Positions 3,509 through 52,519 of a DNA stretch of 64,000 nt are shown piece after piece. The notes under the pieces were generated by a model, which was not told the origin of the DNA, searched no databases, and saw nothing but the letters and a program-made list of their open reading frames with translations. Position 1 is the stretch's first letter. Each line of letters begins with the position of its first letter. Source of the DNA: Verrucomicrobiales bacterium (GTDB lineage Bacteria; Verrucomicrobiota; Verrucomicrobiia; Verrucomicrobiales; DEV007); NCBI GenBank assembly GCA_029212615.1, contig JARGPJ010000003.1, positions 124,001-188,000 on the forward strand. The letters run 5' to 3'. The translations under genes and the position numbers were made by a program.

Positions 3509-5824
3509 TCAGACCGGGGTGTTCTGTCCAATGACCTGGACCTCAGTTTCAAGCTCAATCCCACGCTCATCGAGGGCTTTCTTTTTGATCACTTCGATCA
3601 GATCCAGGACGTCGCGCGCTGTCGCTGCCCCTTCATTCACAATAAAATTACCATGCACACTGCTCACCACCGCCCGGCCGACACCTGACTCCTTGAGATC
3701 CATTTCGTCGACGAGCTGGCCCGCGCCAATTCCCTCAGGGTTCTTAAAAATGCAACCTGCACTGGCAGCAACAGGCTGAGAGGATCGCCGCTTTTCCTTT
3801 GAAGCATTCATCCGCTCAGCAATGAGATGATCCTGCGTCGGCGTTCCTTTAAATACCGCAGAGACTGCCACATTGTGAGCGAGTTCAGGGACGTGCCGGT
3901 AGTGATGTCGAATTTCCTCCACCGGCTTTTCGAAAACCTCACCTTCGGCATCAATCATGGAGACGCTGACGACTTGATCGAAAGTCTCCGATCCCATTGC
4001 CCCGGCGTTCATGCGAAGACTCCCGCCGACGGCACCTGGAATCCCTTCCATCCACTCAAAATCTCCAAGACCGGCAGATTGAGCCGCGGCAGCAAGTGCC
4101 TTGAACTTCACTCCTGCTCCGGCACGGATCGTATCCCCTTCAGCGTGGATGTCAGCGAATTCCCCCTTCACCGGATTCACGACCACTCCGGTAATTCCTC
4201 CATCCCGAACCAGCAAATTCGAACCTCGCCCTACTACACGCAAAGGAATCCCCGAGTCAGCACAGTAACGAACGACGCGGGCCAACCCGGCAACCGTGGT
4301 AGGCTCAATCCAGAACTGAGCCGGACCTCCCACTTTCATCGTGGTGTGTTTGCGCATCGGCTCGTAAAGACGAACTTCACCACCCTCCTCCGCGAGGACT
4401 GACTTCAACTGGTCCATCTCTGCGAGATCTTTCGCGAGACGCGTCCCCACTTCATGAATATTTCCCGCGCCGAGTGTCATGACCCAGTCCCCGGCCTTCA
4501 GGCCTTTTCCGACGGGAAGGTGAAGTGAAGGCAAATCAGGATGACTGTGAGCTTTGGCCACCTCCCCCAGTTCTCTTACCGCCTCAACAATGGTATCGCC
4601 CGTAATCCCCGGAATCGGCTGCTCGCTTGCCGGGTAAATATCAGTGACCCACAGTTCATCAACGCCATCGAAGCACTTCCCGAACTCATCACGCAGCAAT
4701 TGAGTCCTCGAAAAGCGATGCGGCTGAAAGAGACAAATCAGTCGGCCTGCATGCTGGCTCCGGGCCGTCTGTATCGTCGCCGCAATTTCTGTGGGGTGAT
4801 GACCATAGTCATCTACCACCGTCACGAAATCTTCGTGACGCTTCAGCTCGAAACGGCGCTTTGCGCCGCGGAACGAACCGAGAGCCTCATCGACCAGATC
4901 AAAGGAAACCCCCGCTTCATCAGCCAGCGCAATCACCGCGAGAGCATTCAGGACATTGTGCCTTCCCGGTATCCCGAGGCGAACACGTCCGAATTCCTCT
5001 CCTTTACGGTAGACGGTAAACTCAGTTCCAGCTCCTTTCGGAGAAAGGTCGCCCGCCGAAAAATCGAGTTCCTTTCGCCAGCCGTAGCTCACCGCGTTCG
5101 GACGTCCTCCACAGACTTCAGCAGCATGCAAATCATCACCGCAGTAGAAAATCTTACCGGCCGTCTGATCGCAAAACTGGCCGAAAACTCCACGGATCTG
5201 ATCAATTCCATCCTGATAGAAATCAAGATGCTCTTCTTCCACGTTGAGCAGGATCGCATGCTCCGAATGAAAATTAACAAGCGTTCCATCACTTTCGTCG
5301 CCTTCCGCGACAAAAAACTCCCCCTTGTCATCCCAGTTTGCATTGGTTCCGAGAATCGGGATCTCGGCTCCAACATAATGCGATGGAGCTTTCGCTCCAA
5401 CCTTCAGAACATGAGCAGCGAGCGCTGAAGTGGTTGTCTTCCCGTGAGTGCCCGCAACCACGACTCCCTTCTTGCTGTGCATGATTGCGGCAAGAGCCTC
5501 GGCACGACGCAAGAGAGGAGTTCCATTCTCGATCGCCGCATCATAAGCCGCATTTCCCGGCTTAATCGCACTGGAGTAAATCACAACCTCAGCATCAGAG
5601 ACCGCCTGCGCTGAATGCGGGGACGAAAAGGAAAGCCCTACTTTTTCAAGGCGCTCAGTCTCTCTCGAAGTGACGCGATCTGATCCGGAAACGCGATGTC
5701 CCAGCCCCAGGAGCAACGAAGCTAATCCGCTCATCCCTGAACCGGCCACACCGATCAAATGCACTCGAATCGGAACATCCTGATCTCCAAACTTCGGTCC
5801 CCAAATTTCACAAATACTACTCAT
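3509..5824 (-). CDS. murC-murB: Bifunctional MurC-MurB: UDP-MurNAc--L-alanine ligase fused to UDP-MurNAc dehydrogenase
   Basis: 771 residues in one uninterrupted frame. Residues 1 to about 460 are MurC: VHLIGVAGSGMSGLA at 21-35, P-loop GTHGKTTT at 125-132, DDYGHHPTEI and FQPHRFSRT. Residues from about 470 are MurB: MKVGGPAQFW, VVGRGSNLLV (FAD binding), GIPGAVGGSLRMNAGA, and AGCIFKNP near 690, where a Cys occupies the position that is Ser in E. coli MurB. MurB reduces UDP-GlcNAc-enolpyruvate and MurC adds L-Ala, so the fusion joins consecutive cytoplasmic steps. The join is in frame with no internal stop; MDQLKSV at 470 could be a remnant of a separate MurB start. Upstream murG ends 25 bp before. 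An AGAG tract just before the ATG is a weak ribosome site. Confidence 0.95.
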   Translation of the reverse strand: MSSICEIWGPKFGDQDVPIRVHLIGVAGSGMSGLASLLLGLGHRVSGSDRVTSRETERLEKVGLSFSSPHSAQAVSDAEVVIYSSAIKPGNAAYDAAIENGTPLLRRAEALAAIMHSKKGVVVAGTHGKTTTSALAAHVLKVGAKAPSHYVGAEIPILGTNANWDDKGEFFVAEGDESDGTLVNFHSEHAILLNVEEEHLDFYQDGIDQIRGVFGQFCDQTAGKIFYCGDDLHAAEVCGGRPNAVSYGWRKELDFSAGDLSPKGAGTEFTVYRKGEEFGRVRLGIPGRHNVLNALAVIALADEAGVSFDLVDEALGSFRGAKRRFELKRHEDFVTVVDDYGHHPTEIAATIQTARSQHAGRLICLFQPHRFSRTQLLRDEFGKCFDGVDELWVTDIYPASEQPIPGITGDTIVEAVRELGEVAKAHSHPDLPSLHLPVGKGLKAGDWVMTLGAGNIHEVGTRLAKDLAEMDQLKSVLAEEGGEVRLYEPMRKHTTMKVGGPAQFWIEPTTVAGLARVVRYCADSGIPLRVVGRGSNLLVRDGGITGVVVNPVKGEFADIHAEGDTIRAGAGVKFKALAAAAQSAGLGDFEWMEGIPGAVGGSLRMNAGAMGSETFDQVVSVSMIDAEGEVFEKPVEEIRHHYRHVPELAHNVAVSAVFKGTPTQDHLIAERMNASKEKRRSSQPVAASAGCIFKNPEGIGAGQLVDEMDLKESGVGRAVVSSVHGNFIVNEGAATARDVLDLIEVIKKKALDERGIELETEVQVIGQNTPV

Positions 5825-5849
5825 ATCTCTCTAATCGGAATGCCACCAG

Positions 5850-6953
5850 TCACAGGGCCGAAACCACTTCATCACAAACCCTTCCTGAAGCATCCGGAAC
5901 GGCCAGAGATCCCATGGCTTTTTTCATCGTCGCGAGACGTCCTTCGTTCTGAATAAGTTCGATCATTCGTGGCGCAAAATTTTCTTCGTTCAATCCTCCC
6001 TGAGCCCATGCTTCAGCGGCTCCCGCCTCTGAAAAAATATCCGCATTCAAGGTTTGATGATCATCTGCCGCAAACGGATACGGAACGAGCACAGACGGTA
6101 TTTCAAAATGAGACAATTCCGTGAGTGATGATGCCCCCGATCGACAAACGGATAGATCGGCGATGGCGAGAGCTTTCTGCATTTCACCACAAAACGAAAT
6201 GAGCGTCCCCGCCTTCGGATTTGCCTCATAGGCGGGCTTTGCCGCCTCGTAGTCAGTGGGGCCGCTGATCTGTAGAACCTGCAACCCGGCCGCTTCGAAC
6301 TCCGGAAGGCCCGAGGCGACCAACTCATTGAGTCGGCGGGCGCCCTGACTTCCCCCCATCACGAGGAGAATCTTCTTCGCCGGATCCAAATCAAATGCGG
6401 CAGCCGCCTCGGCCCGGTCCATTTTCTCGACGAGCGATGGTCGAAGTGGCGTTCCGACAACCTTCACCGGCTTACCTTTTCCAAAGTAAGGCACGCAACG
6501 TTCAAATCCGACCAGAATAGTTCGTGCAAAACGGGCATTAAGCCGGTTCGCCCGGCCCGGGATCGCATTCGACTCATGGATGAATGTCGGAAGCTTCATG
6601 AACTGCCCTGCCATTAACGGGGCTGTCGAGGTAAACCCTCCCATGCCCAGCACAGCGTCGGCCTGAAACGATTTCAGCAATTTCCGGCAAGAGAAAAACG
6701 CCCCGATAAAGCGAAAGATAAAACCGGGCATTTTGAGCGACACCAGTTTAGGCATCGCCACGGTCGGCATCCGTTCAAAACGGAGGTGTCCATAGCCCTC
6801 CGAAGCGAGAGCGTCGATATGCTTTTCGGAAATCAGGAGGAGAGCCTCTCCGCCGCGCTTCGTCCACTCCTCAGCAACAGCAATGCCGGGAAAAAGGTGA
6901 CCACCGGTGCCTCCGCAGGCAATAACAAGGCGCTTCAGGGAAGAATCAGACAT
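5850..6953 (-). CDS. murG: MurG, lipid II synthase (GlcNAc transferase)
   Basis: 367 residues. GT28 glycosyltransferase that adds GlcNAc from UDP-GlcNAc to lipid I on the inner face of the membrane. Diagnostic pieces: GGTGGHLFPGIAVAEEW at the N-terminus, GMGGFTSTAPLMAG, HESNAIPGRANR, GGSQGARRLN and the donor-site segment CRSGASSLTELSHFEIPSVLVPYPFAADDHQ near 270-300. First gene of the dcw cluster in this window; ftsW, which often precedes murG, is not found immediately upstream. There is no ribosome site in the 15 bases before the ATG, where the DNA is AT-rich. Confidence 0.96.
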   Translation of the reverse strand: MSDSSLKRLVIACGGTGGHLFPGIAVAEEWTKRGGEALLLISEKHIDALASEGYGHLRFERMPTVAMPKLVSLKMPGFIFRFIGAFFSCRKLLKSFQADAVLGMGGFTSTAPLMAGQFMKLPTFIHESNAIPGRANRLNARFARTILVGFERCVPYFGKGKPVKVVGTPLRPSLVEKMDRAEAAAAFDLDPAKKILLVMGGSQGARRLNELVASGLPEFEAAGLQVLQISGPTDYEAAKPAYEANPKAGTLISFCGEMQKALAIADLSVCRSGASSLTELSHFEIPSVLVPYPFAADDHQTLNADIFSEAGAAEAWAQGGLNEENFAPRMIELIQNEGRLATMKKAMGSLAVPDASGRVCDEVVSAL

Positions 6954-7096
6954 TTAGAAAAGCGAAAAATTTAGGGAGATTACACTGTATCCAGAATTTT
7001 GAGAAAAACCTCCCACATGGGATGATGAATTCTCACCTAATGCTGATTTAGCACCGTTTCCCGGAATTGCACCGAAGAATCCCCTCGCCCCCTCAA

Positions 7097-8047
7097 CTAG
7101 ACAACAACCCTCAGGGCATTGGGCAGGGCTTTGATCAGCTGCGGGGTTTGCGCAGCGACATCCCCGTCGACTTGAATATCAATAACGGGATCCGTCTTAA
7201 TATCAACCGACTCGACACTCCAATGCGTGATCAACTTCGAAGCATCAAGATCGATATCGTCGGGATCCGACTTTTTATGACGCTCCAGCCCCATCATTTT
7301 CCGGGCGAGCTGAACGATACCTTCAATATTAGCCTTTTTGAGTAAAAAGACATCAAGACGCCCATCATTTACATCGACTGACGGAGCCAGGGTAAGTCGC
7401 CCCACCCCGACCGTACCGGCATTGGCGACAACACAGGCCACCCCTGAAGATTTCACGGTCTCCTCACCATTGAGAACGAGTTCATAGTCTGCCTCCGGAA
7501 TATCCTGAAGCAATTTAATCGCAGAAAAGACGTAGGCCCACTTCCCGAACTGATCCTTCAACTCACGGGTGGCTTCCTGGACCACGCCGACTTCAATACC
7601 GCACCCGATTCGCAAAAGGAACGGTTTGTCCCCCATCATTCCGACATCGATATGTTTTGTTCGGTAACTCTCCCCGCAGATTAGATCACAGGCTTTTTCA
7701 AGATCCCCCGGGAGCCGTAACTCGGAAGCAACCAGATTACCGGTTCCTCCGCCGAGAATGAGAAGGGGAACATTTGTCCCGATCAGCCCCGAGGCCACTT
7801 CCATCACCGTTCCATCACCACCGTAAACAGCCACGACTTCAAAGCCTCTCTCCGCAGCCTCCTTTGCAAGCTTGCAGCCATCTCCGGTCCCGTGCGTGAT
7901 CGAAATATCCCAGTGAATCCCGGCATCGCGAAATGCCTGATTCAAAATCGCGAGAAGCGGAATCCGCCGCGATGGAGCCGGATTGACGACGACCATGACT
8001 GACTTTGGCTTATCCTGCTTTTGAAGGTTTACCGGTTGGATCGACAT
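7097..8047 (-). CDS. Diacylglycerol-kinase-family lipid kinase
   Basis: 316 residues with the DAGK catalytic fold: VMVVVNPAPSRR at 18-29, the nucleotide loop AVYGGDGTVMEVASGL, and ILGGGTGNLVASEL; the C-terminal half is the beta-sandwich seen in YegS/DgkB-like enzymes (VDVNDGRLDVFLLKK). Family members phosphorylate diacylglycerol or related lipids (or sphingosine-like lipids) at the membrane surface with ATP; the substrate here cannot be read from sequence. It stands alone: 143 bp after murG's start on the same strand and divergent from phoB with 184 bp between. Confidence 0.85.
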   Translation of the reverse strand: MSIQPVNLQKQDKPKSVMVVVNPAPSRRIPLLAILNQAFRDAGIHWDISITHGTGDGCKLAKEAAERGFEVVAVYGGDGTVMEVASGLIGTNVPLLILGGGTGNLVASELRLPGDLEKACDLICGESYRTKHIDVGMMGDKPFLLRIGCGIEVGVVQEATRELKDQFGKWAYVFSAIKLLQDIPEADYELVLNGEETVKSSGVACVVANAGTVGVGRLTLAPSVDVNDGRLDVFLLKKANIEGIVQLARKMMGLERHKKSDPDDIDLDASKLITHWSVESVDIKTDPVIDIQVDGDVAAQTPQLIKALPNALRVVV

Positions 8048-8126
8048 AAACGGATAGAATCGTTTCAGGAACTTAGAATCATTTGCAGGAAACGTCTATT
8101 CTCTTGTATGCTGCAATGAGCAAAAA

Positions 8127-8159
8127 GAGATAACTATCTCGCGGTGACGTAATTGTCAC
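8127..8159. promoter_or_regulatory. Two adjacent inverted repeats between the lipid kinase gene and phoB
   Basis: GAGATA-AC-TATCTC (8127-8140) is a perfect 6-bp inverted repeat, followed at 8144-8159 by GTGAC-N6-GTCAC. Both lie in the divergent promoter region, about 70-105 bp before the phoB ATG. They could be operators for either gene. They do not match the E. coli Pho box (direct repeats of CTGTCAT), so self-regulation by PhoB is not supported by sequence. Confidence 0.35.
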
Positions 8160-8231
8160 GACAGCATTCTTTCGGAACAGTGAAACAGTTGCACTCTGCA
8201 ATCGTTAAAATATCCCTACCCGACCCCACCT

Positions 8232-8921
8232 ATGCCTACCATCCTCATCGTTGACGACGAAGAAGATATTCGTGAACTCATCGCCATCAATCTGCTACGG
8301 GAGGAGAAATACAGCCTTCTCGAAGCAATTAATGGGCTGGAGGCCTTGCATCTGGCCAAGACAAAGAGGCCGGATTTGATCATTCTAGACCTTATGCTTC
8401 CGGAAATGGACGGTCTCACGGTTCACAAAAACCTTCGTGATGATCCCCGTACCGTGAACATTCCGGTGATTATGCTCACCGCCCGGGGAAGGCTTGAGGA
8501 GAAAATTCATGGTCTCGAAATGGGAGCCGATGACTACCTTGCCAAGCCTTTCAGCCCGAAAGAACTCATGCTTCGCGTCAGAAATCTGCTCCGGCGCACC
8601 AATCCGAATCAAGGGGGAAGCCTGATTGAGTCCGGCCCGTTCAGCCTCGACAAGAATGCGCTCAAACTTCATCTTGAAGGCGAGGAAATTGAGCTCACCG
8701 CTACCGAATTCAAACTCCTCCTCAGCCTCATTGAGTCACCGGGCATCACTCAGGAGAGGGGCGACCTCCTTAAGAAAGTTTGGGGCTACAGCGACATGAT
8801 TCAAACCCGTACGCTGGACACTCACATCAAACGTCTTCGTGAAAAGCTGGGAGCCAACGGGAATTCCATTGAGACAGTGCGTGGCGTCGGCTATCGCTTT
8901 CTTGAAGGAGCTTCACACTAA
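8232..8921 (+). CDS. phoB: PhoB/OmpR-family response regulator
   Basis: 229 residues. Receiver domain 1-120 with acidic pair D8-D9, phosphoacceptor D53 (LIILDLMLPEMDG), T83 (VIMLTARG) and K105 (YLAKPFSP); winged-helix DNA-binding domain about 130-226 (ELTATEFKLLLSL, QTRTLDTHIKRLREKLG, ETVRGVGYRF). Phosphorylated dimers of this family bind direct-repeat sites and activate transcription. It is followed 5 bp later by a PhoR-like kinase, so the two form an operon. The phosphate role is inferred from closest family resemblance; no pst, phoU or phosphatase genes are nearby, so other envelope signals remain possible. Confidence 0.88.
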   Translation: MPTILIVDDEEDIRELIAINLLREEKYSLLEAINGLEALHLAKTKRPDLIILDLMLPEMDGLTVHKNLRDDPRTVNIPVIMLTARGRLEEKIHGLEMGADDYLAKPFSPKELMLRVRNLLRRTNPNQGGSLIESGPFSLDKNALKLHLEGEEIELTATEFKLLLSLIESPGITQERGDLLKKVWGYSDMIQTRTLDTHIKRLREKLGANGNSIETVRGVGYRFLEGASH

Positions 8922-8926
8922 AACCC

Positions 8927-10258
8927 TTGGAAACGTTCATCATTCTCTCCCTTTCGGGGATTTCAATCTGGCTTGGTTGGCGATTATACAGACTTCGCGA
9001 GGGCATCACCAGCCTGACGGAAGCAATTCAAAGCGATCCGCTGCCCTCCATTCGAAAAATCGATGCCGACATCTATCAACGACGGCTCAAAGCGCTGAGC
9101 GCCGTAGCCCTGAACACGGTTGCGGAAGCCACCCTGACGAGAGACTCCGAACGGCGGAAAAGGGAATTCCTTGAAACCCTCCTCAATGAAATTAAGGACC
9201 CTATATTCATTCTCGACAGCAATCGTGAGATCAGGTTCCTGAATGAATCCGCCCGCCAGCTCTTCCCAAGCGATCAGCCCTACATGGCCCGGGCATTTAT
9301 CGATGTCTGCCGCGACCACCGGGTCTTCGACACCCTCGTCCTCGCCGATGAAGTAGGCGCAAAAGTTTCTGACAACATCGTCCTTCGCAAAGCAGAGCCG
9401 GGAACCGGCCGCATGCAGGAAATAAACTTGCTCGTCGAAGCCGAACCCCTCGTTTTTCACGGATCCAACTCCGACCCGGACCGGGGCAGCTGGGTTCTCC
9501 TCAGAGACGTCACAAACGAACTGGAAACTGAGCAAATCCGTCAGGACTTTGTGGCGAATGCCTCCCACGAACTGCGAACCCCGCTTTCAATTATCAACGG
9601 GTATCTGGAATCAATGGACGATCCTGATACCGACTTAAATCAGGAACTATATCGTCGTGCGGTTCGGACGATGAAGAAACACGGGGAACGTATCGCCCGC
9701 ATTATCGAGGACATGCTGATGATCTCGAAACTGGAAAACGCTGACAACCTTCTCAATCACGAGCCATTCAGCCTCAGAGATTCAGCCGAGGAAATGGTAT
9801 CTCAACTCATGCCGATCATTGATGAAAAGCACGCCAGGGTCAGCATTAAATCCGACCCGGTGAATGGTGATTGGATTCTGGTCGGTGACCGCTTCTACTG
9901 GGACCAGATCTTTTTCAATCTCATCGAGAATGCCCTGAAGCAGAACCCCGAGCCCGGCTTAAACATCAAGATCCGATTCCGGGAGAACAAAGGTCGTTAC
10001 CTCATTTCCATCTGCGACGATGGAATCGGCATCCCTTCAGCTGATGTTCCCCTCGTCTTCAAGCGCTTCTATCGTGTCGAAAAGCATCACGCAACGATCA
10101 AAACGGCAGGCACCGGACTTGGCCTGTCAATCGTGAAACGCGCCATTGAAGCCCATCACGGCACCGTGAACCTCGAAAGCGAACCCGGAGTGAAGACCGA
10201 ATTCGTGATATCAGTGCCTGCGACAAAAGTACCGACAGGGAGCCCGCACCTGGACTAG
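8927..10258 (+). CDS. phoR: PhoR-like membrane sensor histidine kinase (TTG start)
   Basis: 443 residues. One N-terminal membrane helix (FIILSLSGISIWLGWRL, 4-20), a PAS-like domain about 85-195 (DPIFILDSNREIRFLNESARQLF), HisKA with phospho-acceptor H214 in FVANASHELRTPL, and HATPase_c with N-box NLIENALKQN, DDGIGIP and GTGLGLSIVKRAI. The start must be TTG at 8927: an in-frame stop sits at 8903 and no ATG or GTG lies between. AAGGAG occurs 16 bases before it, further than usual. Having a single N-terminal helix and no periplasmic domain matches PhoR rather than most sensor kinases, suggesting that the signal comes from a membrane partner. Partner: the PhoB-like regulator immediately upstream. 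Confidence 0.88.
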   Translation: METFIILSLSGISIWLGWRLYRLREGITSLTEAIQSDPLPSIRKIDADIYQRRLKALSAVALNTVAEATLTRDSERRKREFLETLLNEIKDPIFILDSNREIRFLNESARQLFPSDQPYMARAFIDVCRDHRVFDTLVLADEVGAKVSDNIVLRKAEPGTGRMQEINLLVEAEPLVFHGSNSDPDRGSWVLLRDVTNELETEQIRQDFVANASHELRTPLSIINGYLESMDDPDTDLNQELYRRAVRTMKKHGERIARIIEDMLMISKLENADNLLNHEPFSLRDSAEEMVSQLMPIIDEKHARVSIKSDPVNGDWILVGDRFYWDQIFFNLIENALKQNPEPGLNIKIRFRENKGRYLISICDDGIGIPSADVPLVFKRFYRVEKHHATIKTAGTGLGLSIVKRAIEAHHGTVNLESEPGVKTEFVISVPATKVPTGSPHLD

Positions 10259-10325
10259 AACAGCTGAGCATAGCCCCCCCCGCTTTAATAAAACGCGAGG
10301 GCGGCACCATTCGCACACTCCTCTC

Positions 10326-11021
10326 CTAGCGCCTCGCCGCAAGGAGTCGCATCACGAAGTAGAGCAGTTGCCCGAGAGAGGCGATGGCGGCAACCGTATA
10401 GGTCATCGCGGCCCAGAAGAGCGCATTCTTCGCCTTATCGTGATCAAGATCCCCCATTGCGTGGGAGCCGTCCAGCCATACGAGCGCACGACGGCTGGCA
10501 TCAAACTCAACAGGAAGAGTGATGAACGAAAACAGTGTCGTCGCAGCAAACATAATCACCCCGATGAGGAGGACCGTAGTGTTTCCTGATGCCGCGAGAA
10601 ACATCCCTGCCATCAGCACCCACATCATGAACTTGTTCGACAGGTTAACCACCGGAACAAGCGCCGAGCGCAATTTGAGAGGACCGTAAGCCTTCGCGTG
10701 CTGCACGGCATGACCGCACTCATGAGCAGCCACCGCTGCTGCTGCCACATTTCGCTGACTGTAAACAACCTCACTCAGATTCACCGTCTTCTTCAGAGGG
10801 TTGTAATGGTCGGTCAACTGCCCCGGAGTCGAAATAATCTGGACATCAGTTATCCCCTCGTCCTGCAACATTCTCTGTGCAATCTCGGCGCCGGACATCG
10901 TAATCGGTCTCCCGGAGTATTCGCGGAAACGCTTTTGCAGCATCGAGCCAACCCACCGACTGATGAGCATGGCACCAAAGGTGATGACGTAATAGATGAT
11001 ATCGATACCGCCGAAAGACAT
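10326..11021 (-). CDS. YugP-type membrane zinc metallopeptidase
   Basis: 231 residues from ATG at 11021; the longer open frame upstream is not conserved-looking. The zinc motif H100-E-C-G-H104 sits in AAHECGHAVQHA, preceded by NLSEVVYSQRNVAAAA, and followed by membrane segments (FMMWVLMAGMFLAA, TVLLIGVIMFAATTLFSFITLPVEFDAS, NALFWAAMTYTVAAIASLGQLLYFV). These are hallmarks of the YugP family (putative neutral zinc metallopeptidase, Pfam Zn_peptidase_2). The substrates are unknown. It is convergent with phoR. EFDASRRAL after the last-but-one helix is typical of the family. Confidence 0.88.
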   Translation of the reverse strand: MSFGGIDIIYYVITFGAMLISRWVGSMLQKRFREYSGRPITMSGAEIAQRMLQDEGITDVQIISTPGQLTDHYNPLKKTVNLSEVVYSQRNVAAAAVAAHECGHAVQHAKAYGPLKLRSALVPVVNLSNKFMMWVLMAGMFLAASGNTTVLLIGVIMFAATTLFSFITLPVEFDASRRALVWLDGSHAMGDLDHDKAKNALFWAAMTYTVAAIASLGQLLYFVMRLLAARR

Positions 11022-11114
11022 GATAAAGTGTGGTAAATGTATTCGTAACCAAGTTACGAAGATTGGAGGAAAAAGAAACGATAAATCGCCTTCATCGCAC
11101 AAGTATCCGCCCAT

Positions 11115-11156
11115 AAAAAAGCGACCCCGGCGGACCATAAGTCCACACGGGGTCGC
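11115..11156 (-). terminator. Rho-independent terminator after rlpA
   Basis: On the minus strand GCGACCCCG (complement of 11148-11156) pairs with CGGGGTCGC (complement of 11121-11129); a second internal pairing GGAC/GTCC extends the hairpin. The stem is followed by six T residues (11120-11115). It starts about 30 bases after the rlpA stop. Confidence 0.9.
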
Positions 11157-11187
11157 CCACCTGAGCCTCTGAAACCCAGAAATTCTG

Positions 11188-12195
11188 TCAGCGAATCACT
11201 AGCGGACGTTCGCGCCATCCTCTGCGATTCGCCTCATAGCTGATCCAGCGTTGCGCCTCGTCAGCTGTCGAAAACCCGCCTTGTGTAACAACCAGAAACA
11301 GGGCGTTCGCATTCGAACGGAGCACTGTCGTCGGAACGCCACTTCGAACCAATGATTCGTTCATTTCGTATGCATTTGAGGATTTCCTGAACGCGCCGAA
11401 CTGCGCCCGGTAGACCGATACCTGTGTCGTCGGTTGAGCCGGAGCATTCTGCCGGGCAGGAACCGACTGGATCTGCGAACCTGCATTTAGCGGGATCAAA
11501 TCCGACGGCGCAACCCCGGCCGGGGATCCACCGATTCCAGTCGTCCCTGCTTGAACAGGACTCATCGGATCGTACTGCGCCGCAGGAATACCGTATTGAA
11601 CCGGCTTGGCCTTCCCGAAGAGCCCTCTCTTTACAGGGGCCCCTACAGCGGTTTCCGCCTCGAGCTGCTTGGCCTTGTGAGGATCATTTACCGCTTCCAG
11701 CATCGGATCGCGCTTCAAGCCTTTGAAAGGAGTAAACTTCTTCTTCGCCGGCGCATCGACCACCCCGGGAGCGGGAACAACCGAATGCTGAACCGTTGTC
11801 GGAGCAGTCACCGCGGATCGCGGCTGAAACGCCGGGGCGTTAGACAGTATCATCATCGACCCCTGAGCCAGCCTCCCTTTCTCCAACCCGATGTGATTCG
11901 CTGCCGCCCGTGAAATATTTACCAGTGTCGAGTCCTCTCGTTTCCGATCGTTGATTCGCACATCGACCATTCGACCTGTCTCAAAATTAGCCACTCTGAC
12001 CATGGTCCCCAGAGGAAGCGTCGCGTGAGCGGCCGTGAGCGCCCTGACCTCGTAAAGCTCACCACTGGCAGTTGGCCGCCCCTGATACTGATCCGAATAC
12101 ATGCTGAGATACCCGGTAGCCGAAACCTCAGCCTCGACAGAGAGAGGCCCACAACACAGGAAAACAAAGCAAATAAGAGAGAGTCGTGAGGTCAT
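11188..12195 (-). CDS. rlpA: RlpA-family septal-ring lytic transglycosylase with SPOR domain
   Basis: 335 residues. Signal peptide (MTSRLSLICFVFLCCGPLSVEA), then the double-psi beta-barrel at about 25-110 (YQGRPTASGELYEVRALTAAHATLPLG split across residues 37-63, VRVANFETGRMVDVRINDR), a long Pro/Ala linker, and a C-terminal SPOR domain from about 262 (YRAQFGAFRKSSNAYEMNESL). In RlpA proteins the barrel cleaves or binds peptidoglycan glycan strands denuded of stem peptides, and SPOR targets the septum. CCG lies in the leader, but no lipobox is convincing, so it is probably periplasmic. Monocistronic, with an AT-rich upstream region and its own terminator. Confidence 0.9.
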   Translation of the reverse strand: MTSRLSLICFVFLCCGPLSVEAEVSATGYLSMYSDQYQGRPTASGELYEVRALTAAHATLPLGTMVRVANFETGRMVDVRINDRKREDSTLVNISRAAANHIGLEKGRLAQGSMMILSNAPAFQPRSAVTAPTTVQHSVVPAPGVVDAPAKKKFTPFKGLKRDPMLEAVNDPHKAKQLEAETAVGAPVKRGLFGKAKPVQYGIPAAQYDPMSPVQAGTTGIGGSPAGVAPSDLIPLNAGSQIQSVPARQNAPAQPTTQVSVYRAQFGAFRKSSNAYEMNESLVRSGVPTTVLRSNANALFLVVTQGGFSTADEAQRWISYEANRRGWRERPLVIR

Positions 12196-12199
12196 AACG

Positions 12200-12285
12200 C
12201 GCAGTTATTTCAATTTAGTTAAAATTAGTTAAATATAAAGTTTTTATTTTATTAATTTTTTATAATTTATTGAAGCCTTTCCGAT
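12200..12285 (-). promoter_or_regulatory. AT-rich promoter region of rlpA with a 10-bp direct repeat
   Basis: About 80 bases directly before rlpA are almost entirely A and T, unlike the surrounding DNA. TTAGTTAAA occurs twice at 12215-12223 and 12225-12233, ten bases apart (one helical turn). Minus-strand TATATT and TATAAA-like hexamers are present but none has a good -35 partner, so the exact promoter cannot be named. Confidence 0.4.
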
Positions 12286-12649
12286 ATTCTTTAACAGACT
12301 CCCAGCCTTCGCTGAGCCTTAAGGGATAGCGTTCTATACGCAGTCCCTCCGAATTAAGCTGAATCGCGCCGGGGAAGACGCCTCAGCTCCGCTGACTGCC
12401 CCTGCACTCGAACAAGATGTCATCGAGACAAAGGATTCCGACCTCCTCCCACTTTATGCCGATTACCGCCCCCCCTTTAACGATATGCTCGGACTGCTGC
12501 TCTTACCGAATTCCAAACAGCCGGGCTTTAGTCGAGGCTCGTTCTCCTTTATTCCACCCCGAAAAAAAGACTTCCCGATCACTAAGAACCGGAAAGCCTC
12601 TATTCATCGATTGAGAGAGGATACGAAATCTTCCTCAGATGTCTCCGCC
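12286..12649. other. Intergenic stretch, no convincing gene
   Basis: A plus-strand frame stays open from about 12326 to a TAG at 12739, but its first ATG is at 12485 (84 residues, very basic, no recognisable domain) and its last 90 bases lie antisense to the DUF1501 gene. I do not regard it as a supported gene. No RNA gene or clear terminator was seen here. Confidence 0.5.
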
Positions 12650-22213: not shown

Positions 22214-23245
22214 ATGAGGTATTCGCGGATCAAAGGTGAAGGACTCAGCTACTTTCACTGCATCTCCCGTGTCGTTGACCGGCGATTCATTTTTCACGAT
22301 GCCGAAAAAGAGCATTTTGTCGCTCTCATGCGCAAACTCGAGGCCTTTCACGGCATGCGGGTGGTCACCTATTGTGTCATGTCGAACCACTTCCACCTCC
22401 TCATCGAGGAGCCGGATCGCGAGACGCTCCCGCCTCTTGACCGGGAAACCCTTCTCAAGCGCATGGGTTTTCTCTACAAGACGCACACCATCAGAACCGT
22501 CCGTGAGGAGCTCGACCGTGCCGCCAGGTCAGGGAATACCCAATGGGAACAGGAAATTCTGGACCGCTACCGCCGTCGCATGGGCGACCTCTCCGCCTTC
22601 ATGAAAGACCTCAAACAGCGGTTTTCCCAATGGTACAACCGTCGTGAAGGTCGGCGCGGCACCCTATGGGAAGATCGCTTTAAGAGCCTCCTCGTTGAAG
22701 GTGACACCAAAGCACTCATGACCGTCGCTGCCTACATCGATCTGAATCCGATTCGTGCCGGCATCGTTGAAAAAGTGGAATCCTATCGCTGGTGCGGCTA
22801 TGCCTCGGCCGTGGCAGGAAACCGCTGGGCCCGTGAGGGGCTGAGACGGATCTGGGGACAATCTCCGGCCATCAGCGCCGGGGAAGACGAACTGGATTGG
22901 GACACGGTGAGCCCTCAATACCGACTCTGGTTGTATCAGGAAGGGGTCGAAAAGAAGCAGGCTGAGACCGGAAAGAAAGCCAGGCGCAAAGGCTTCACCG
23001 AAGAGGAGCTTGAAGAAACGATCGCGTCAGGCGGGCAACTTCCCCTGCCGTCTGTCCTGAGAAAACGAGTGCGTTACTTCAGTGACGGAGCCGTTCTCGG
23101 CAGTGCTGATTTTGTAAATCGAATCTTCGCGCATCAAAGGGAAAAACACGGACTAAAGCGAAAGACCGGAGCGAGGCGGATGAAAGACGCTGCCTGGGAG
23201 GGACTTCATGTCATGCGCGATCTCGGTGTGGATCGGATCGGTTGA
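22214..23245 (+). mobile_element. REP-associated tyrosine transposase (RAYT, Y1_Tnp/TnpA_REP family)
   Basis: 343 residues, intact. IS200/IS605-like HUH nuclease domain: IKGEGLSYFHCISRVVDRRFIF at the N-terminus, the metal-binding H59-F-H61 in VMSNHFHLLIEEP, GTLWEDRFKSLLVEGD, and the likely nucleophile Y174 in YIDLNPIRAG. Longer than the classical E. coli RAYT (about 165), with a C-terminal extension from about 215. RAYTs are normally single-copy, domesticated enzymes that nick and mobilise short REP palindromes rather than themselves. The gene lies between inverted copies of GGGACAGGTTAT with further copies within 2 kb on both sides. Its start is ATG 22214, with no ribosome site. Confidence 0.9.
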
Positions 23246-31444: not shown

Positions 31445-33193
31445 TTACTCAGCGGTCCCGGCTTCGTCTTCCCTGACACCGTTCTTCACCTCGAATTCAC
31501 GGCACCAGCCTTTGATTTCGAGATCGTTGAAGATTTTACCCATGACACGCCGGAGAAGCCCTTTGAGATTGGCGTTGTCCAACTCCGCAAGATTTCGAAC
31601 CGCCGCGTCCTTGTAGGTTTCGAGCAGAAGGAGGCATTTCTCATCCGCCTCAACCTCGTGCGCCAGTGTCCGGATCTTGTGAATCGCGATGTCCTCAAGA
31701 TCTTCATGGCTCCAGAGCGATTCCATGAGCGCCTTGTCATCTCCTTTCGCCCTTTCGCGGGCCAGAGCGAGAAGGACGCTGGGACGCATTTTCTCCAGCT
31801 CATTGTCGCCGGCATCCGCACCGAGGTCGTCCATGTCATCACGGATCTGATAAGCAATCCCGAGATTTTCAGAATACTTCTCGAGGACCTCACCGACTTC
31901 GTCGAGCTTTCCGGCATAGCTGGCACCCAGTTTCAGCGCCACCTCAAATGCCGGAGCGGTTTTTTGTCGGAAAATCTCAAGGACCTGCTTGGATTTCAAG
32001 GGCTTAGGATCCTGAGCCCATACGAGTTCAGCCCCCTGACCTCGACAAAGTTCGCGCTGTCCCCGTGAAGAGACAAGCAGCATTTCTGTCTTCTGTGCAT
32101 CGGAAATCTCACTCTCACCGATCAGGCGATACCCTTCCCCGATGAGAAGATCCCCTGCGTTGAGCGCCACCGGAATACTGTGCTCAACGTGCAAAGTCGG
32201 CTGATCATAGCGGCCGTGATCCTCGTCCTCAATGTCATCATGAATGAGGGAAGCCTTGTGAAAAAGTTCCGTCGCCACTGCGATCTTCTTGAGATCCTCA
32301 GGGATAGGTTCACCACGATCATCACGCAGAGCCTCAAAGGCTGCCGCCGTCAGAAACGGACGCCAGCGTTTGCCGTCACGGGCAAGCCACTCGCGGGCGA
32401 TTTCCTCCTGTCGGCCTTCGGCCGGGCCCATGATCGATTCGATCGACTCAGCGGTGAACCATTCCTTCACCTCTTCGTGCAAAGAGTTCAGATCAAGTCG
32501 CCGCGTTTTATCATCACTCGTGAGGTGAATGTATTCCCAGACCCAGTCGATATCGACGGTTGTATTGATGCAGTCATCCTGCAGGAGAGGCACCGCAATC
32601 GATGGGATCGCGGCCGCTTCGACATAAGGAAAAGTTCGCTCAAGAACGGGAAGGCATGAAATCCCGACGATCGCTTCGATCTGCCCTGTCTGAATCAAAG
32701 ACATCACGATAGCAGAACCTTCCGCAACGAGAACGGCATAACCGAGACGCTCCGCCTCGTTTTGGAAATCCTGAATGGAGCAAAGGCCGCACTGCTTGCA
32801 AAGAAGGCCGAACTCATCAAAGGGCGCCGGGCATTTGTCCTCCACCCGAAGACATTTCGGCATGAGGAGGAGCCGGCGCTCGTAGGGAATCTCGGCGAGT
32901 GTTTCCCGCCACATCTCATTATTGAGGCAGACCGCCGTATAGTGGAGGTAGGTTTCATCCCCTTCGTAGCCAAGTCCCTTGAGAATGACACGGGCGTGAA
33001 CATCAAGTTCCTCCAGAGGCATCGGAGGAACAGGGTTCTCCTTTTCGATGTAGTCGCGAATCGCGGCAAGAAAGTGATCCCGCTCAATTTTGGTCTGAGG
33101 AATGTACTTCTTCGGCGGACGAAAACGAGTCGTGGTGACTGGCACCGGCTTCGGAACCTTGATGGTCTGGATGGAGTCGACGGGAGAGGACAT
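31445..33193 (-). CDS. DUF116 fused to a polyprenyl (isoprenyl diphosphate) synthase
   Basis: 582 residues. Residues about 85-225 match DUF116: MPKCLRVEDKCPAPFDEFG, LLCKQCGLCSI with C132-x2-C135-x2-C138, then VLVAEGSAIVMSLIQTGQIEAIVGISCLPVLE; C114, C121 and C180 are also typical. Residues about 260-560 are a trans-isoprenyl diphosphate synthase: GKRWRPFLTAAAFEAL, first Asp-rich motif D319-D320-x2-D323 (LIHDDIEDED), GDLLIGEGYRLI, FRQKTAPAFEVALKLGA, second Asp-rich motif D452-D453-x-D455 (YQIRDDMDDLG). The synthase chains isopentenyl diphosphate into C15 to C40+ products for quinone side chains or lipid carriers. The role of DUF116 is unknown; the cysteines suggest an Fe-S cluster. Both Asp motifs are intact, so catalysis is expected. 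Confidence 0.9.
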   Translation of the reverse strand: MSSPVDSIQTIKVPKPVPVTTTRFRPPKKYIPQTKIERDHFLAAIRDYIEKENPVPPMPLEELDVHARVILKGLGYEGDETYLHYTAVCLNNEMWRETLAEIPYERRLLLMPKCLRVEDKCPAPFDEFGLLCKQCGLCSIQDFQNEAERLGYAVLVAEGSAIVMSLIQTGQIEAIVGISCLPVLERTFPYVEAAAIPSIAVPLLQDDCINTTVDIDWVWEYIHLTSDDKTRRLDLNSLHEEVKEWFTAESIESIMGPAEGRQEEIAREWLARDGKRWRPFLTAAAFEALRDDRGEPIPEDLKKIAVATELFHKASLIHDDIEDEDHGRYDQPTLHVEHSIPVALNAGDLLIGEGYRLIGESEISDAQKTEMLLVSSRGQRELCRGQGAELVWAQDPKPLKSKQVLEIFRQKTAPAFEVALKLGASYAGKLDEVGEVLEKYSENLGIAYQIRDDMDDLGADAGDNELEKMRPSVLLALARERAKGDDKALMESLWSHEDLEDIAIHKIRTLAHEVEADEKCLLLLETYKDAAVRNLAELDNANLKGLLRRVMGKIFNDLEIKGWCREFEVKNGVREDEAGTAE

Positions 33194-48409: not shown

Positions 48410-51400
48410 TCAGTTCTTCTTCGGTAGTTCCGGAGGGTTCGACTTTGTCTTTTTCTTCGCCTTAAAGAGGGGCTTGAAATGCCCGTTCTCTGCGGAATTT
48501 CTCCATGCCATCCTGAGCCAGCGAACCAGAGCGGCAGCGAGCCAGAGAGCCCACAGCAGCATCGCGAGACGAAACCACCAGATGGAGACAGACCAATACC
48601 CCGGCTGCGGAAGTTCGGCTCCGGAGCGCTCCGAGAACCATTGCAAATAACTGGCGGTAGACCCGTTTCCCGCAACATACATCTGCGGATCTCCCAACAG
48701 TCCCGACGACGCCACCCCGAAAAAGATTCCCACCGAAAGCATGGTCAGGAAAATCAGAATCCCGGCGCAGAGATTGAAACTCCAGGGAGGTAGTTGCTGA
48801 AATCCGGGAGAGCCCCGCCACTGAACAAAAAAGAGCCAGGCAACAACGACCACCGAGAGAAACACCGGTATTTGCGTTAACCCAAGGCAGAGAAGTAACC
48901 ACTCGTGCATGCGAAGCGGACTTGTCGGTACTCGTGACAAGACAAAGGCTGCCAGTATTGCGAAAACAAGAACGCCCCAGAATCGAACCGCAGGGCCACG
49001 AAGGGGACCGTCGAGGAGAACAATCCAACGGTCATCAGCCGGTTGAATCAAGGTCGTGACATTGGCTGACTCCACAGGCAGCACGACTCCGTCCGCCCGG
49101 GTCCATCCGCGATCCTCTCCCGGAATCCTCCACTCAACCTCGATATTCTGCGCGCCCGGCCGCAAGGGAACCACCACCCCGTCCCCCTCTTTGCGAACCG
49201 GGATGCTTTTTCCAAAGTGCTTTAATGACGTTACGTCAGCACCCGTCGGAATCTGGATCGCAAAGTCTTCCCCGAGGCTTGTCCGCAGCGAAAGGTTGAG
49301 GGTCGACAAACGCTGCCGACGCCCGGGCTTCAGATGGTGCTTTGCCGAATCAATCGTGACAGCAGCCCCTGCGACGGCTTCGGGACGGGAGACGGAAATC
49401 GTCGCCGACTCACCGGGCCAGGGCTGCCACAAAGGCACGAGCTGTTCTTCGCTCACCACGAAAGTCGGAGAAAGCCCGGCAAAGGAAACATTCCAAACCG
49501 GTGAGGCTACGAGTCGCCATTGCTCCGTCCAGCTGTCGGAATCACGTGCTGAGAGCGTCAATTCATTTACCGGCGACAACTCCCCTTCCCAACTGAGACT
49601 GTCAGCCGCCGGGGCAAGCCTGACCTCAACCGAACCTCCTTCAACGGAACGCCCTGCACTGACCACTTTCTCCCCGGGCAGGACCGGAACTCTGATAACG
49701 ACAGCACGTCCCGTCGGTGAAAGCCTTGAAACGGTCGTCTTAACCCTCCAGACAAGTCCCAGCTCAATCTGACGTTCAACCAGAAGTGCGTGACCGGTAT
49801 CCGGTCTGTCGTAGGTGGCTGAAGTTCCTCCTGCCCCTTCATCCCGTGATCTCGAAAACAGGATCTGGTCTTCCGCACTTCCGTCGGGTCGCACTCCACT
49901 GACACTCCACCCTTCAGCCTCAATGGAAAAGCGACGGGGTTTCAGCGCAAATCCCCACTCCCAGTCCGTGACGTCGCGGAGCTTTCCTCTCACGGTAAGC
50001 TTCCGGATTCCTTTCTCAGGTAAAAGCACCCATATCCCCTTCTCTTTACGGAGCAGAGTTGCCTCACTACCATCAGCAAATACGGCTGAGACGGGAATAC
50101 AGGCGCCCAGCGGAAGCGGCACCGGAACTGCGCACCGATCCGCAGCATGATACTCAAACGTAATCGTCATCTCCTCTCCTTCGATCTGCAGATTCGCCGA
50201 GCTGATTCCCGCAGCCCCCGGAAAAGCGTCAGACGGCTCCGTCACCCGGGCCCGCAATTCGTTGAGCAATTCAGCATTCGGAAACTGAGCCTGCACCTTC
50301 TCAGGAGAACTGAGGACACAGAGCCCTGCCACGAGAATGGCAGCCGTCCCGGCCACTCCCGGATCCAGCGGCCTATCCTCCTTCTTCGGGCCGTGTGATG
50401 ACTTCCGCCGAACTGTCAAAAGCATTACTAACAATCCAACGAGGCACAGCACTCGAAGGACGGCGAGAAAACGGGAGAGGAGAGGCGGAATCAGGATTGG
50501 TCTCACCTCCTCAGAAGCCGAAACCGGCCCCTTCCATCCAAACTCCACGGTCCGCCAAGTCCAGGAAGGAACGCCGGGTCCGGTTTGGATGACCGCATCA
50601 GGATCATTCTTTAAGTTCGACTTTTTGAGCTTGTAAGAGTCCTTCGAAACCACCGGCGCGGCTACATTTCTTGAGGATGAAACATCGCTGTATACACCCC
50701 CTTCGAGGGCACCGGCAGCAAGTTTCATCCGGCCGGGAGCAGAGGAAAAGGCAGCTTTCCGCTCAAGTTGCGGAAAAACAGCCCCCTGAATTTGATAAGT
50801 GATAAACGGGAGTAAAGAGAGCAGAAGAATCCCTGCCATACCCCATTTGACGCCCATGACGACCTTCCGCCACCGCCCTTCCGGCATGAAAGCGACCAAT
50901 GCCACCGGAATCAAAAGTAGAAGCCACGGAATCCGGGGTGCACCAGGCTCATGGTAGGCTAGCCCGAAGGCAGCGAAGGCGATCAAAGCAGCACTGAGCC
51001 CCTGCAGGCGGAACACCGCGAGAGTGAACAGTAAGAGCAGAAAAAGATCCAGCAAGGTCCAGGAGGTCAACCAGTCACCGCGTGAGTAGTCAGCACCGAA
51101 GAGGGCAAAAAGACGGTATCCGGGAGGAAGTTGCATCACCGCGGTAAGCCCATCGGCGTCAGCCTGCCACCCGGTTGCCGGAAGGGTGCGATTCATCTGA
51201 ATTCTTCCGGTGGCAGTGGCCGACAACTGAGGTGATCTCACTTCAAACCCCGGAGCCCCTCCGTCAGGATTGTGTGTGATCAGCTGCGGTTCACCATCCA
51301 CACTGACAGACCCCAGAGCGTGACCTTCTGCGGCGTCGAGGCGACGAACCTTGCTGACCGGTCCACTCAATTTATCCTGATAGGTCAACATGCTCCCATC

Positions 51401-52519
51401 CCCGTCGAGCCAGAGTGATCTTTGAATTTTTAACGGCGCCCGTCCCTGCTCTCCGGAACCTCTGACGCGCTCGATCAGTTGAAATGTCTTTGCGGTATCC
51501 CACCGGTAAATGGGCAAGGTCCGCCATTCCGCAGGAACCTGCGTTTGAGCGACATCGATCTGCGGAAGCCCGATTACCTCACTCTGACGAAATTCCGGAA
51601 GCGCTTCAAAAGCGACCGATTGATCAGCAACAGCAGGGGTGACTCCTTCTGAGAACGAAACTCCCTCCACTTCGTTGATTTGAAAAGCGCGGAGAGTAAT
51701 ACTCCATCGTCCCGGCCGGAGCTGTGACTTGAGAAGCCCCCGATCATCAATCGCCACGGGAACAGGAGCACTGATACTCGCCAGTTTCCATCCTTTCGGC
51801 AAAACGGTCCCCAGAGTCTCTTCACGGCTCTTTCCAGCAACGATCAACTCGATCCTCGTCTCAAACCAGAGAGGTATTCCATCCTCCAGTTTCGAGAACA
51901 CATTGATCGAAAGAAAATCTTCGTCGACCGGCTCTGACGATGCCTGGCGTTGCAACCACAGGGTACCGTCAGAATCCCATGAAGGATTCTCCTGCGGAGC
52001 ACCTTTGACGACGAGATCCAACAACCCGATCTCCGGGGGAAGCGTGATCTGCTGAGGAAGCAGCGGCCATTCAAAGTGCCCCTTCACCGTAACACTTCCC
52101 TCTGCTATTTGAATGGCGGGCCGGCCTTCCCGCTCAAGCACCGGAACCGGGACACCCGATACCGTCACCTCCTGAGGCCACAGCCGCGAACTTCCGGGAA
52201 GGCTCAGCCATTCTTTCTGAAAAGCGGCCACTTCCATCGAAAACTCAGCGCCGCTCTCCGTTGCATCCAATTCCAGGCGGGAACACCAGATCGCGAATCG
52301 AACAGCAGGATCGGAGTAGTCCCGGGGGCTCTTGAAATCACTCCCCCCATTTGTGACCCACCCGACCCAGGGCTGTAGCGATTCAGGCACCTCATCTTCT
52401 CTCTCTCTCCCGGTTCCCACTTCGTCCTCCGGCCCTGTAAGCTCCTGGCCCATCAAGCCCCGGGGCAGGGAAATTGAAATAGAAGCAACGAGAAGGAGAA
52501 GCAGCCTGGCGGGAGTCAT
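48410..52519 (-). CDS. Very large membrane protein of unknown function
   Basis: 1369 residues. A signal peptide (MTPARLLLLLVASISISLPRG) is followed by about 450 beta-rich extracytoplasmic residues. Residues 464-493 (LPPGYRLFALFGADY, SRGDWLTSWTLLDLF) lead into four membrane helices to about 575, including AYHEPGAP at 521-528; two more follow around 700-760 (LRVLCLVGLLVMLLTV, AILVAGLCVL). A second large extracytoplasmic beta region (about 765-1210) is closed by four C-terminal helices. I recall uncharacterised giant proteins in other bacteria with the same FGADxxxGxWLxxWTLLDLF and HEPGAP core, so it may be a widespread family. No enzyme motif seen. Divergent from a sulfatase; function open. Confidence 0.85.
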   Translation of the reverse strand: MTPARLLLLLVASISISLPRGLMGQELTGPEDEVGTGREREDEVPESLQPWVGWVTNGGSDFKSPRDYSDPAVRFAIWCSRLELDATESGAEFSMEVAAFQKEWLSLPGSSRLWPQEVTVSGVPVPVLEREGRPAIQIAEGSVTVKGHFEWPLLPQQITLPPEIGLLDLVVKGAPQENPSWDSDGTLWLQRQASSEPVDEDFLSINVFSKLEDGIPLWFETRIELIVAGKSREETLGTVLPKGWKLASISAPVPVAIDDRGLLKSQLRPGRWSITLRAFQINEVEGVSFSEGVTPAVADQSVAFEALPEFRQSEVIGLPQIDVAQTQVPAEWRTLPIYRWDTAKTFQLIERVRGSGEQGRAPLKIQRSLWLDGDGSMLTYQDKLSGPVSKVRRLDAAEGHALGSVSVDGEPQLITHNPDGGAPGFEVRSPQLSATATGRIQMNRTLPATGWQADADGLTAVMQLPPGYRLFALFGADYSRGDWLTSWTLLDLFLLLLFTLAVFRLQGLSAALIAFAAFGLAYHEPGAPRIPWLLLLIPVALVAFMPEGRWRKVVMGVKWGMAGILLLSLLPFITYQIQGAVFPQLERKAAFSSAPGRMKLAAGALEGGVYSDVSSSRNVAAPVVSKDSYKLKKSNLKNDPDAVIQTGPGVPSWTWRTVEFGWKGPVSASEEVRPILIPPLLSRFLAVLRVLCLVGLLVMLLTVRRKSSHGPKKEDRPLDPGVAGTAAILVAGLCVLSSPEKVQAQFPNAELLNELRARVTEPSDAFPGAAGISSANLQIEGEEMTITFEYHAADRCAVPVPLPLGACIPVSAVFADGSEATLLRKEKGIWVLLPEKGIRKLTVRGKLRDVTDWEWGFALKPRRFSIEAEGWSVSGVRPDGSAEDQILFSRSRDEGAGGTSATYDRPDTGHALLVERQIELGLVWRVKTTVSRLSPTGRAVVIRVPVLPGEKVVSAGRSVEGGSVEVRLAPAADSLSWEGELSPVNELTLSARDSDSWTEQWRLVASPVWNVSFAGLSPTFVVSEEQLVPLWQPWPGESATISVSRPEAVAGAAVTIDSAKHHLKPGRRQRLSTLNLSLRTSLGEDFAIQIPTGADVTSLKHFGKSIPVRKEGDGVVVPLRPGAQNIEVEWRIPGEDRGWTRADGVVLPVESANVTTLIQPADDRWIVLLDGPLRGPAVRFWGVLVFAILAAFVLSRVPTSPLRMHEWLLLCLGLTQIPVFLSVVVVAWLFFVQWRGSPGFQQLPPWSFNLCAGILIFLTMLSVGIFFGVASSGLLGDPQMYVAGNGSTASYLQWFSERSGAELPQPGYWSVSIWWFRLAMLLWALWLAAALVRWLRMAWRNSAENGHFKPLFKAKKKTKSNPPELPKKN

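Follow-up and report, generated by a model that had tools for sequence, protein, structure and literature searches.

A DUF116-polyprenyl synthase fusion conserved across the Verrucomicrobiota and its probable place in an undescribed terpenoid pathway

DUF116 is a protein domain that has previously been without an assigned function, and in the open-access literature, to which our search was confined (subscription journals and preprints lay outside it), it is named by a single paper (PMC5898192, 2015). The section of that paper concerned with the domain reports at least six conserved cysteines with a CxxCxxC motif, proposes a flavodoxin-like fold and a function in electron transfer, records sulfite or nitrite reductase genes as neighbours of archaeal DUF116 genes and gives one sentence to a DUF116-polyprenyl synthetase fusion, Psta_0175 of Pirellula staleyi. 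The fusion itself has thus been known since 2015, and the genomic context is what is new here. Among described systems, the hopanoid pathway employs HpnC/D/E, SHC and HpnH, the Bacillus sesquarterpene pathway employs HepS/HepT, YtpB and SqhC (PMC7839719), and IspH is presented, in the part of PMC8837944 that deals with it, as an allylic diphosphate reductase with a [4Fe-4S] cluster.

The gene under study lies at positions 31445 to 33193 of a 64,000-nucleotide stretch of a Verrucomicrobiales genome, the whole of which we refer to as the window. It is a single open reading frame of 582 amino acids on the minus strand (ATG at 33193, stop at 31445), a strand that the preliminary description had not given. 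That description had placed DUF116 ahead of an isoprenyl diphosphate synthase with both Asp-rich motifs, and this was confirmed, since one frame contains both Pfam domains over their cut-offs and the motifs were located. DUF116 (PF01976) is N-terminal, spanning residues 79 to 221 (32531-32959, minus strand; hmmscan E 1.2e-35, 122.7 bits, cut-off 25), and is followed by the all-trans polyprenyl diphosphate synthase domain (PF00348) at residues 264 to 496 (31706-32404, minus strand; hmmscan E 4.2e-40, 138 bits, cut-off 27). The first Asp-rich motif, DDIED (D319-D320-x-x-D323; 32225-32239, minus strand), comes after an invariant HKAS and is present in all of 60 diverse fused proteins; in the second, DDMDD (D452-D453-x-x-D456; 31826-31840, minus strand), D453 is kept in 58 of the 60 (the other two being gaps) and D452 in 57, and the last position is Asp in 53 and Glu in 5. 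Two AlphaFold models were used, and a structure search with the whole protein was filled by prenyl synthases. The modelled synthase half has the canonical all-helical fold of all-trans prenyl synthases (VIA Z of about 32 over some 313 residues at 2.5-2.7 A against solved synthases), its nearest solved relatives being GGPP-type enzymes, with 27% identity to 1wy0 over the synthase domain. From the family cut-off, the DDxxD motifs and the predicted fold, the synthase half is assigned as an all-trans isoprenyl diphosphate synthase. Counting back from the first Asp motif, position -5 is occupied by Ala in 60/60 fused proteins and position -8 by Phe in 56/60. When the aromatic residue at -5 was mutated in the GGPP synthase of Sulfolobus, the products were C30-C50 (PMC4244643), which makes it likely that the product of the fused synthase exceeds C20.

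Full-length homologues, at 60-98% identity, came from other genomes on at least 80 contigs, every record being titled Verrucomicrobia or one of its subgroups, so the fusion is not an assembly artefact. A chance or assembly join of two genes is ruled out by these 80 contigs together with the occurrence of the fused form in 64 genomes of the phylum. Plasmid and viral collections yielded no relatives of the fusion. A search for the domain pair across genomes showed phylum-wide conservation of the fusion: DUF116 is present in 81 of 387 whole genomes and the fused form in 64 (59 fused loci that were fetched, together with the genome of the window and those of four near relatives), stand-alone DUF116 was found at 21 loci, and some genomes carry both. 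Two contigs titled Akkermansia muciniphila contain the fused gene, although two families of the window's order (f2 and f6) are without it; titles of such environmental metagenome-assembled genomes may be wrong.

Both active parts are conserved. In the DUF116 half, five cysteines form a cluster, C114-x6-C121-x10-C132-x2-C135-x2-C138 (32780-32854, minus strand), each retained in 59 or 60 of the 60 fused proteins, and two more, C180 (60/60) and C208 (59/60), bound the stretch at 32570-32656 on the same strand. All seven occur in 17/17 aligned stand-alone DUF116 proteins and are thus invariant in both clades, and the CxxCxxC motif is common to the fused and stand-alone forms. In a maximum-likelihood tree, which has few columns and an unknown root, the fused and stand-alone DUF116 domains are split by one fully supported branch, and this fits a single fusion event.

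The window considered alone misleads on function, because its neighbouring genes (an SGNH hydrolase-like gene, a sulfatase, an ABC permease and hisC, all named by eye) include no isoprenoid or quinone gene. Elsewhere in the window, the open reading frame at 22214-23245 resembles by eye a REP-associated (Y1-type) transposase, and that at 48410-52519 encodes 1369 amino acids, including membrane-like segments, for which inspection by eye suggested no clear assignment.

In relatives, the fused gene belongs to a same-strand operon with genes for a radical SAM enzyme, a ferredoxin-type protein, an alpha-alpha-toroid protein and a class II cyclase resembling squalene-hopene cyclase. Clustering of neighbours at 81 fused loci recovered the radical SAM protein (about 400 amino acids) at 47, the ferredoxin-type 4Fe-4S protein at 49, the alpha-alpha-toroid protein (260-340 amino acids, with a prenyltransferase toroid domain) at 49 and the cyclase (about 600 amino acids) at 33, all on the same strand and mostly near or abutting the fused gene. 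Three Verrucomicrobiales-type records (L039, L037 and L028) hold the complete set in one run, which in L039 is packed within 5447-12440. The partner cyclase has both squalene-hopene-cyclase domains (PF13243 and PF13249) and keeps the class II acid motif DxDD as PDADD, and the radical SAM partner has CxxxCxxC and additional conserved cysteines. The ferredoxin-type partner is divided in L039, where its N-terminal half has a frame of its own (L039:6787-7143, 119 amino acids); elsewhere this half is joined to the ferredoxin part. Pfam and NCBIfam searches with the 119-residue frame were without a match. In several distant genomes the operon also carries genes for PQQ-type beta-propellers, a NapH-like membrane ferredoxin and another 4Fe-4S protein, an extension that would suit a product working in electron transfer in the periplasm or membrane.

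The window's own genome has the operon broken up and all five genes nevertheless retained, dispersed: the radical SAM gene at G000:C18:341790-343001 (68% identity to that of L039), the ferredoxin-type gene at C18:122181-123032 (63% identity), and the toroid and cyclase genes side by side on C10 (L225:7960-8847 and 8851-10614; cyclase 54% identity). Immediately ahead of the radical SAM gene in this genome, and in the same orientation, is a DhnA-type aldolase gene (L224:7954-8769) related to 2-amino-3,7-dideoxy-D-threo-hept-6-ulosonate synthase, below the cut-off for that enzyme; we left it out of the set, since it was not found near the operon in the fused loci.

Phylum-wide counts, which cover the fused gene, the cyclase and the radical SAM gene, show the three travelling together: across the 387 genomes the fused gene occurs in 64, the cyclase in 63 (61 of them with the fused gene) and the radical SAM gene in 59 (all 59 with it). 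The Fisher p values for this co-occurrence, about 1e-64, ignore the shared ancestry of the genomes and so overstate the evidence; better evidence is the pattern of joint loss in families f2 and f6, which are without the fused gene and also without the orthologous radical SAM gene, ferredoxin-type gene and cyclase. Exceptions were few: three of the 64 fused genomes are without the cyclase and five without the radical SAM gene, perhaps owing to assembly gaps, and in one genome (92% complete) the radical SAM, ferredoxin-type and cyclase genes are present and the fused gene was not found.

We consider it highly probable that the fused gene, the cyclase, the radical SAM gene and their companions share one terpenoid pathway, and we assign a probability of roughly 0.6 to the reading that the fused protein builds the chain as the opening enzyme of an undescribed pathway of this kind, with DUF116 as its predicted redox module. 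In such a pathway, the polyprenyl synthase half would make an all-trans allylic diphosphate whose chain probably exceeds C20, and the squalene-hopene-cyclase-like class II enzyme, with its small alpha-alpha-toroid partner, would cyclise a product of that chain, while the radical SAM enzyme and the ferredoxin-type protein would supply further radical or reductive chemistry. DUF116 would most likely serve as a redox module built on a cysteine-ligated Fe-S centre (or on thiols), accepting electrons from the ferredoxin-type partner and either carrying out or feeding a reductive step on the newly made allylic diphosphate, at the point where squalene synthase acts in the hopanoid pathway.

Evidence on the function of DUF116 that is independent of the fused clade comes from the stand-alone loci. 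There ispH is nearby at 10 of the 21 loci, in most of these next to the DUF116 gene and divergently transcribed, a crtI-family desaturase gene at 8 and one or the other at 16, and a rough binomial estimate, which treats genomes as independent, puts the chance of finding ispH within 5 kb this often below 1e-18. No prenyl synthase gene was present in the fetched stretch of any of the 21, and the two halves of the fusion were therefore not encountered as independent neighbours. Both DUF116 clades thus keep company with makers or users of allylic diphosphates, and the fused clade has a ferredoxin-type protein for company as well. The tie to isoprenoid metabolism put forward in the preliminary description is strongly supported by the phylum-wide fusion, the terpenoid partners in the operon and these stand-alone associations.

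Some Fe-S or redox control of chain synthesis, as further suggested in that description, is plausible. In a strict form of this idea, DUF116 would do no more than sense the redox state or iron and tune chain synthesis accordingly, with no chemistry of its own on the product. A Cys-rich domain in cis with a synthase, with all of its cysteines invariant and both modules apparently intact, could be read in this way. Regulatory domains are usually less strictly conserved, however, the stand-alone form is a separate and equally conserved clade beside ispH and crtI-type genes, and the operon's own ferredoxin-type and radical SAM proteins suit electron transfer more than sensing; a purely regulatory role is, in our judgement, unlikely. 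We infer instead that DUF116 serves reductive steps of isoprenoid metabolism as a redox module with cysteine ligands. That it is a metal or Fe-S redox module of some type is probable, and the cysteines could alternatively bind zinc or form disulfides. Its predicted structure, of modest confidence (pLDDT 74, falling to about 50 in the cysteine loop), returned no Foldseek match below E 0.001 when searched alone, and its profile had no match among PDB sequences up to E 5; the VIA Z scores of at most 8.1 against designed Rossmann 2x2 proteins are within the range of unrelated models and are loosely in line with the flavodoxin- or receiver-like proposal made in PMC5898192. The exact reaction of DUF116 is speculative. 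Direct action on the allylic diphosphate is a tentative suggestion to which we give perhaps one chance in a few, and we hold as slightly more doubtful still the boldest version of the proposal, namely, that DUF116 represents an Fe-S enzyme of a new class, which takes the place of squalene synthase by reductive removal or remodelling of the diphosphate end of a newly made polyprenyl diphosphate, after which the cyclase and the radical SAM enzyme build a terpenoid of undescribed kind that is widespread in the Verrucomicrobiota.

The set could also be a variant hopanoid or triterpenoid pathway, in which squalene would come from elsewhere, the cyclase would be a squalene cyclase and the fused synthase would make farnesyl diphosphate. 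The cyclase matches the Pfam domains of squalene-hopene cyclases and, below threshold, TIGR01787, and the squalene/phytoene synthase family PF00494 is present in 11 of the 64 genomes with the fusion. One of these is the genome of the window, which has two such genes, so squalene may be available there. Against this, 46 genomes that have the fused gene, the cyclase and the radical SAM gene are without PF00494, HpnH (TIGR03470) was over its cut-off in 0/58 genomes tested, and the cyclase scored 127 bits, far under the hopene cyclase cut-off of 431. Moreover, the invariant Ala at -5 argues, by the published rule (PMC4244643), against a C15 product, and the window's genome has two ordinary prenyl synthases besides the fusion, one of which (L227) is over the FPPsyn cut-off and is a separate farnesyl diphosphate synthase. 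YtpB (PF10776), of the sesquarterpene route, likewise had no match in the genomes searched (0/58), with a control match in Bacillus subtilis. Hopanoid and sesquarterpene routes consequently fit poorly, the hopanoid variant being in our view decidedly improbable, and the absences point to a pathway that runs without squalene in most of these bacteria.

A different objection concerns DUF116 alone, which might be a general electron carrier that was joined to the synthase without catalysing any step itself, delivering electrons, for example, to the radical SAM enzyme. The sulfite and nitrite reductase genes beside archaeal DUF116 genes fit such a carrier and tell against our main reading, and electron transfer is what was proposed in the section of PMC5898192 on the domain, but it would be odd that the fusion partner in every fused genome found should then be the synthase and not the radical SAM or ferredoxin-type protein, and the latter is already a carrier; we regard this explanation as very unlikely. 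Polyprenyl synthases often serve quinones, and the operon of some lineages takes in NapH-like and other Fe-S genes, but a long-chain synthase for the side chain of menaquinone or another quinone, under redox control, fits poorly and is the least credible reading of all, since the fusion is a third synthase where two ordinary ones already exist, whole families of the window's order do without it, and the tie to quinone metabolism claimed in the preliminary description was not borne out, the identified conserved neighbours of the fused gene including no named quinone biosynthesis or UbiA-type gene and those in the window being unrelated.

The interest of the five-gene set, of which we found no description in the open-access literature (again with subscription journals and preprints outside the search), is as a testable route both to the function of DUF116, for which it offers a pathway, substrates to try and co-expression partners, and to an unknown terpenoid. 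Should the pathway prove real, the making of an unknown cyclic terpenoid without squalene synthase would be common to many members of a large bacterial phylum, with a bearing on membrane lipids and on the reading of sediment lipid biomarkers.

Comparison with known systems sets these features in relief. Psta_0175, from another phylum of the PVC group, has the same two domains in one protein, by its authors' statement; the section of PMC5898192 in which it appears proposes electron transfer and does not mention the operon, the co-occurrence with cyclase and radical SAM genes or the link between stand-alone DUF116 and ispH. The synthase half shares with the Pyrococcus GGPP synthase 1wy0 its fold and both Asp-rich motifs, and it differs from ordinary synthases of that type in its Ala in place of an aromatic residue at -5, its invariant HKAS, the N-terminal DUF116 and, by eye, the absence of the canonical GK-x-T-x-P after the second motif. 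With the hopanoid pathway the set has in common a class II DxDD cyclase alongside a radical SAM enzyme, and it departs from that pathway in the missing HpnH, in the 46 genomes without a squalene/phytoene synthase and in the low score of its cyclase. In outline it resembles the Bacillus sesquarterpene pathway, where a prenyl synthase and a squalene-hopene-cyclase homologue lead to a cyclic terpenoid without squalene (PMC7839719), and it is set apart there by the lack of YtpB, the DUF116 domain on the synthase and the inclusion of a radical SAM enzyme and a ferredoxin-type protein. DUF116 belongs, by Pfam assignment, to a different family from IspH (LytB) and has seven conserved cysteines, but the chemistry suggested for it, in which a cysteine-bound cluster reduces an allylic diphosphate by two electrons, would be like that of IspH as set out in the relevant part of PMC8837944, and ispH is a neighbour of stand-alone DUF116 genes.
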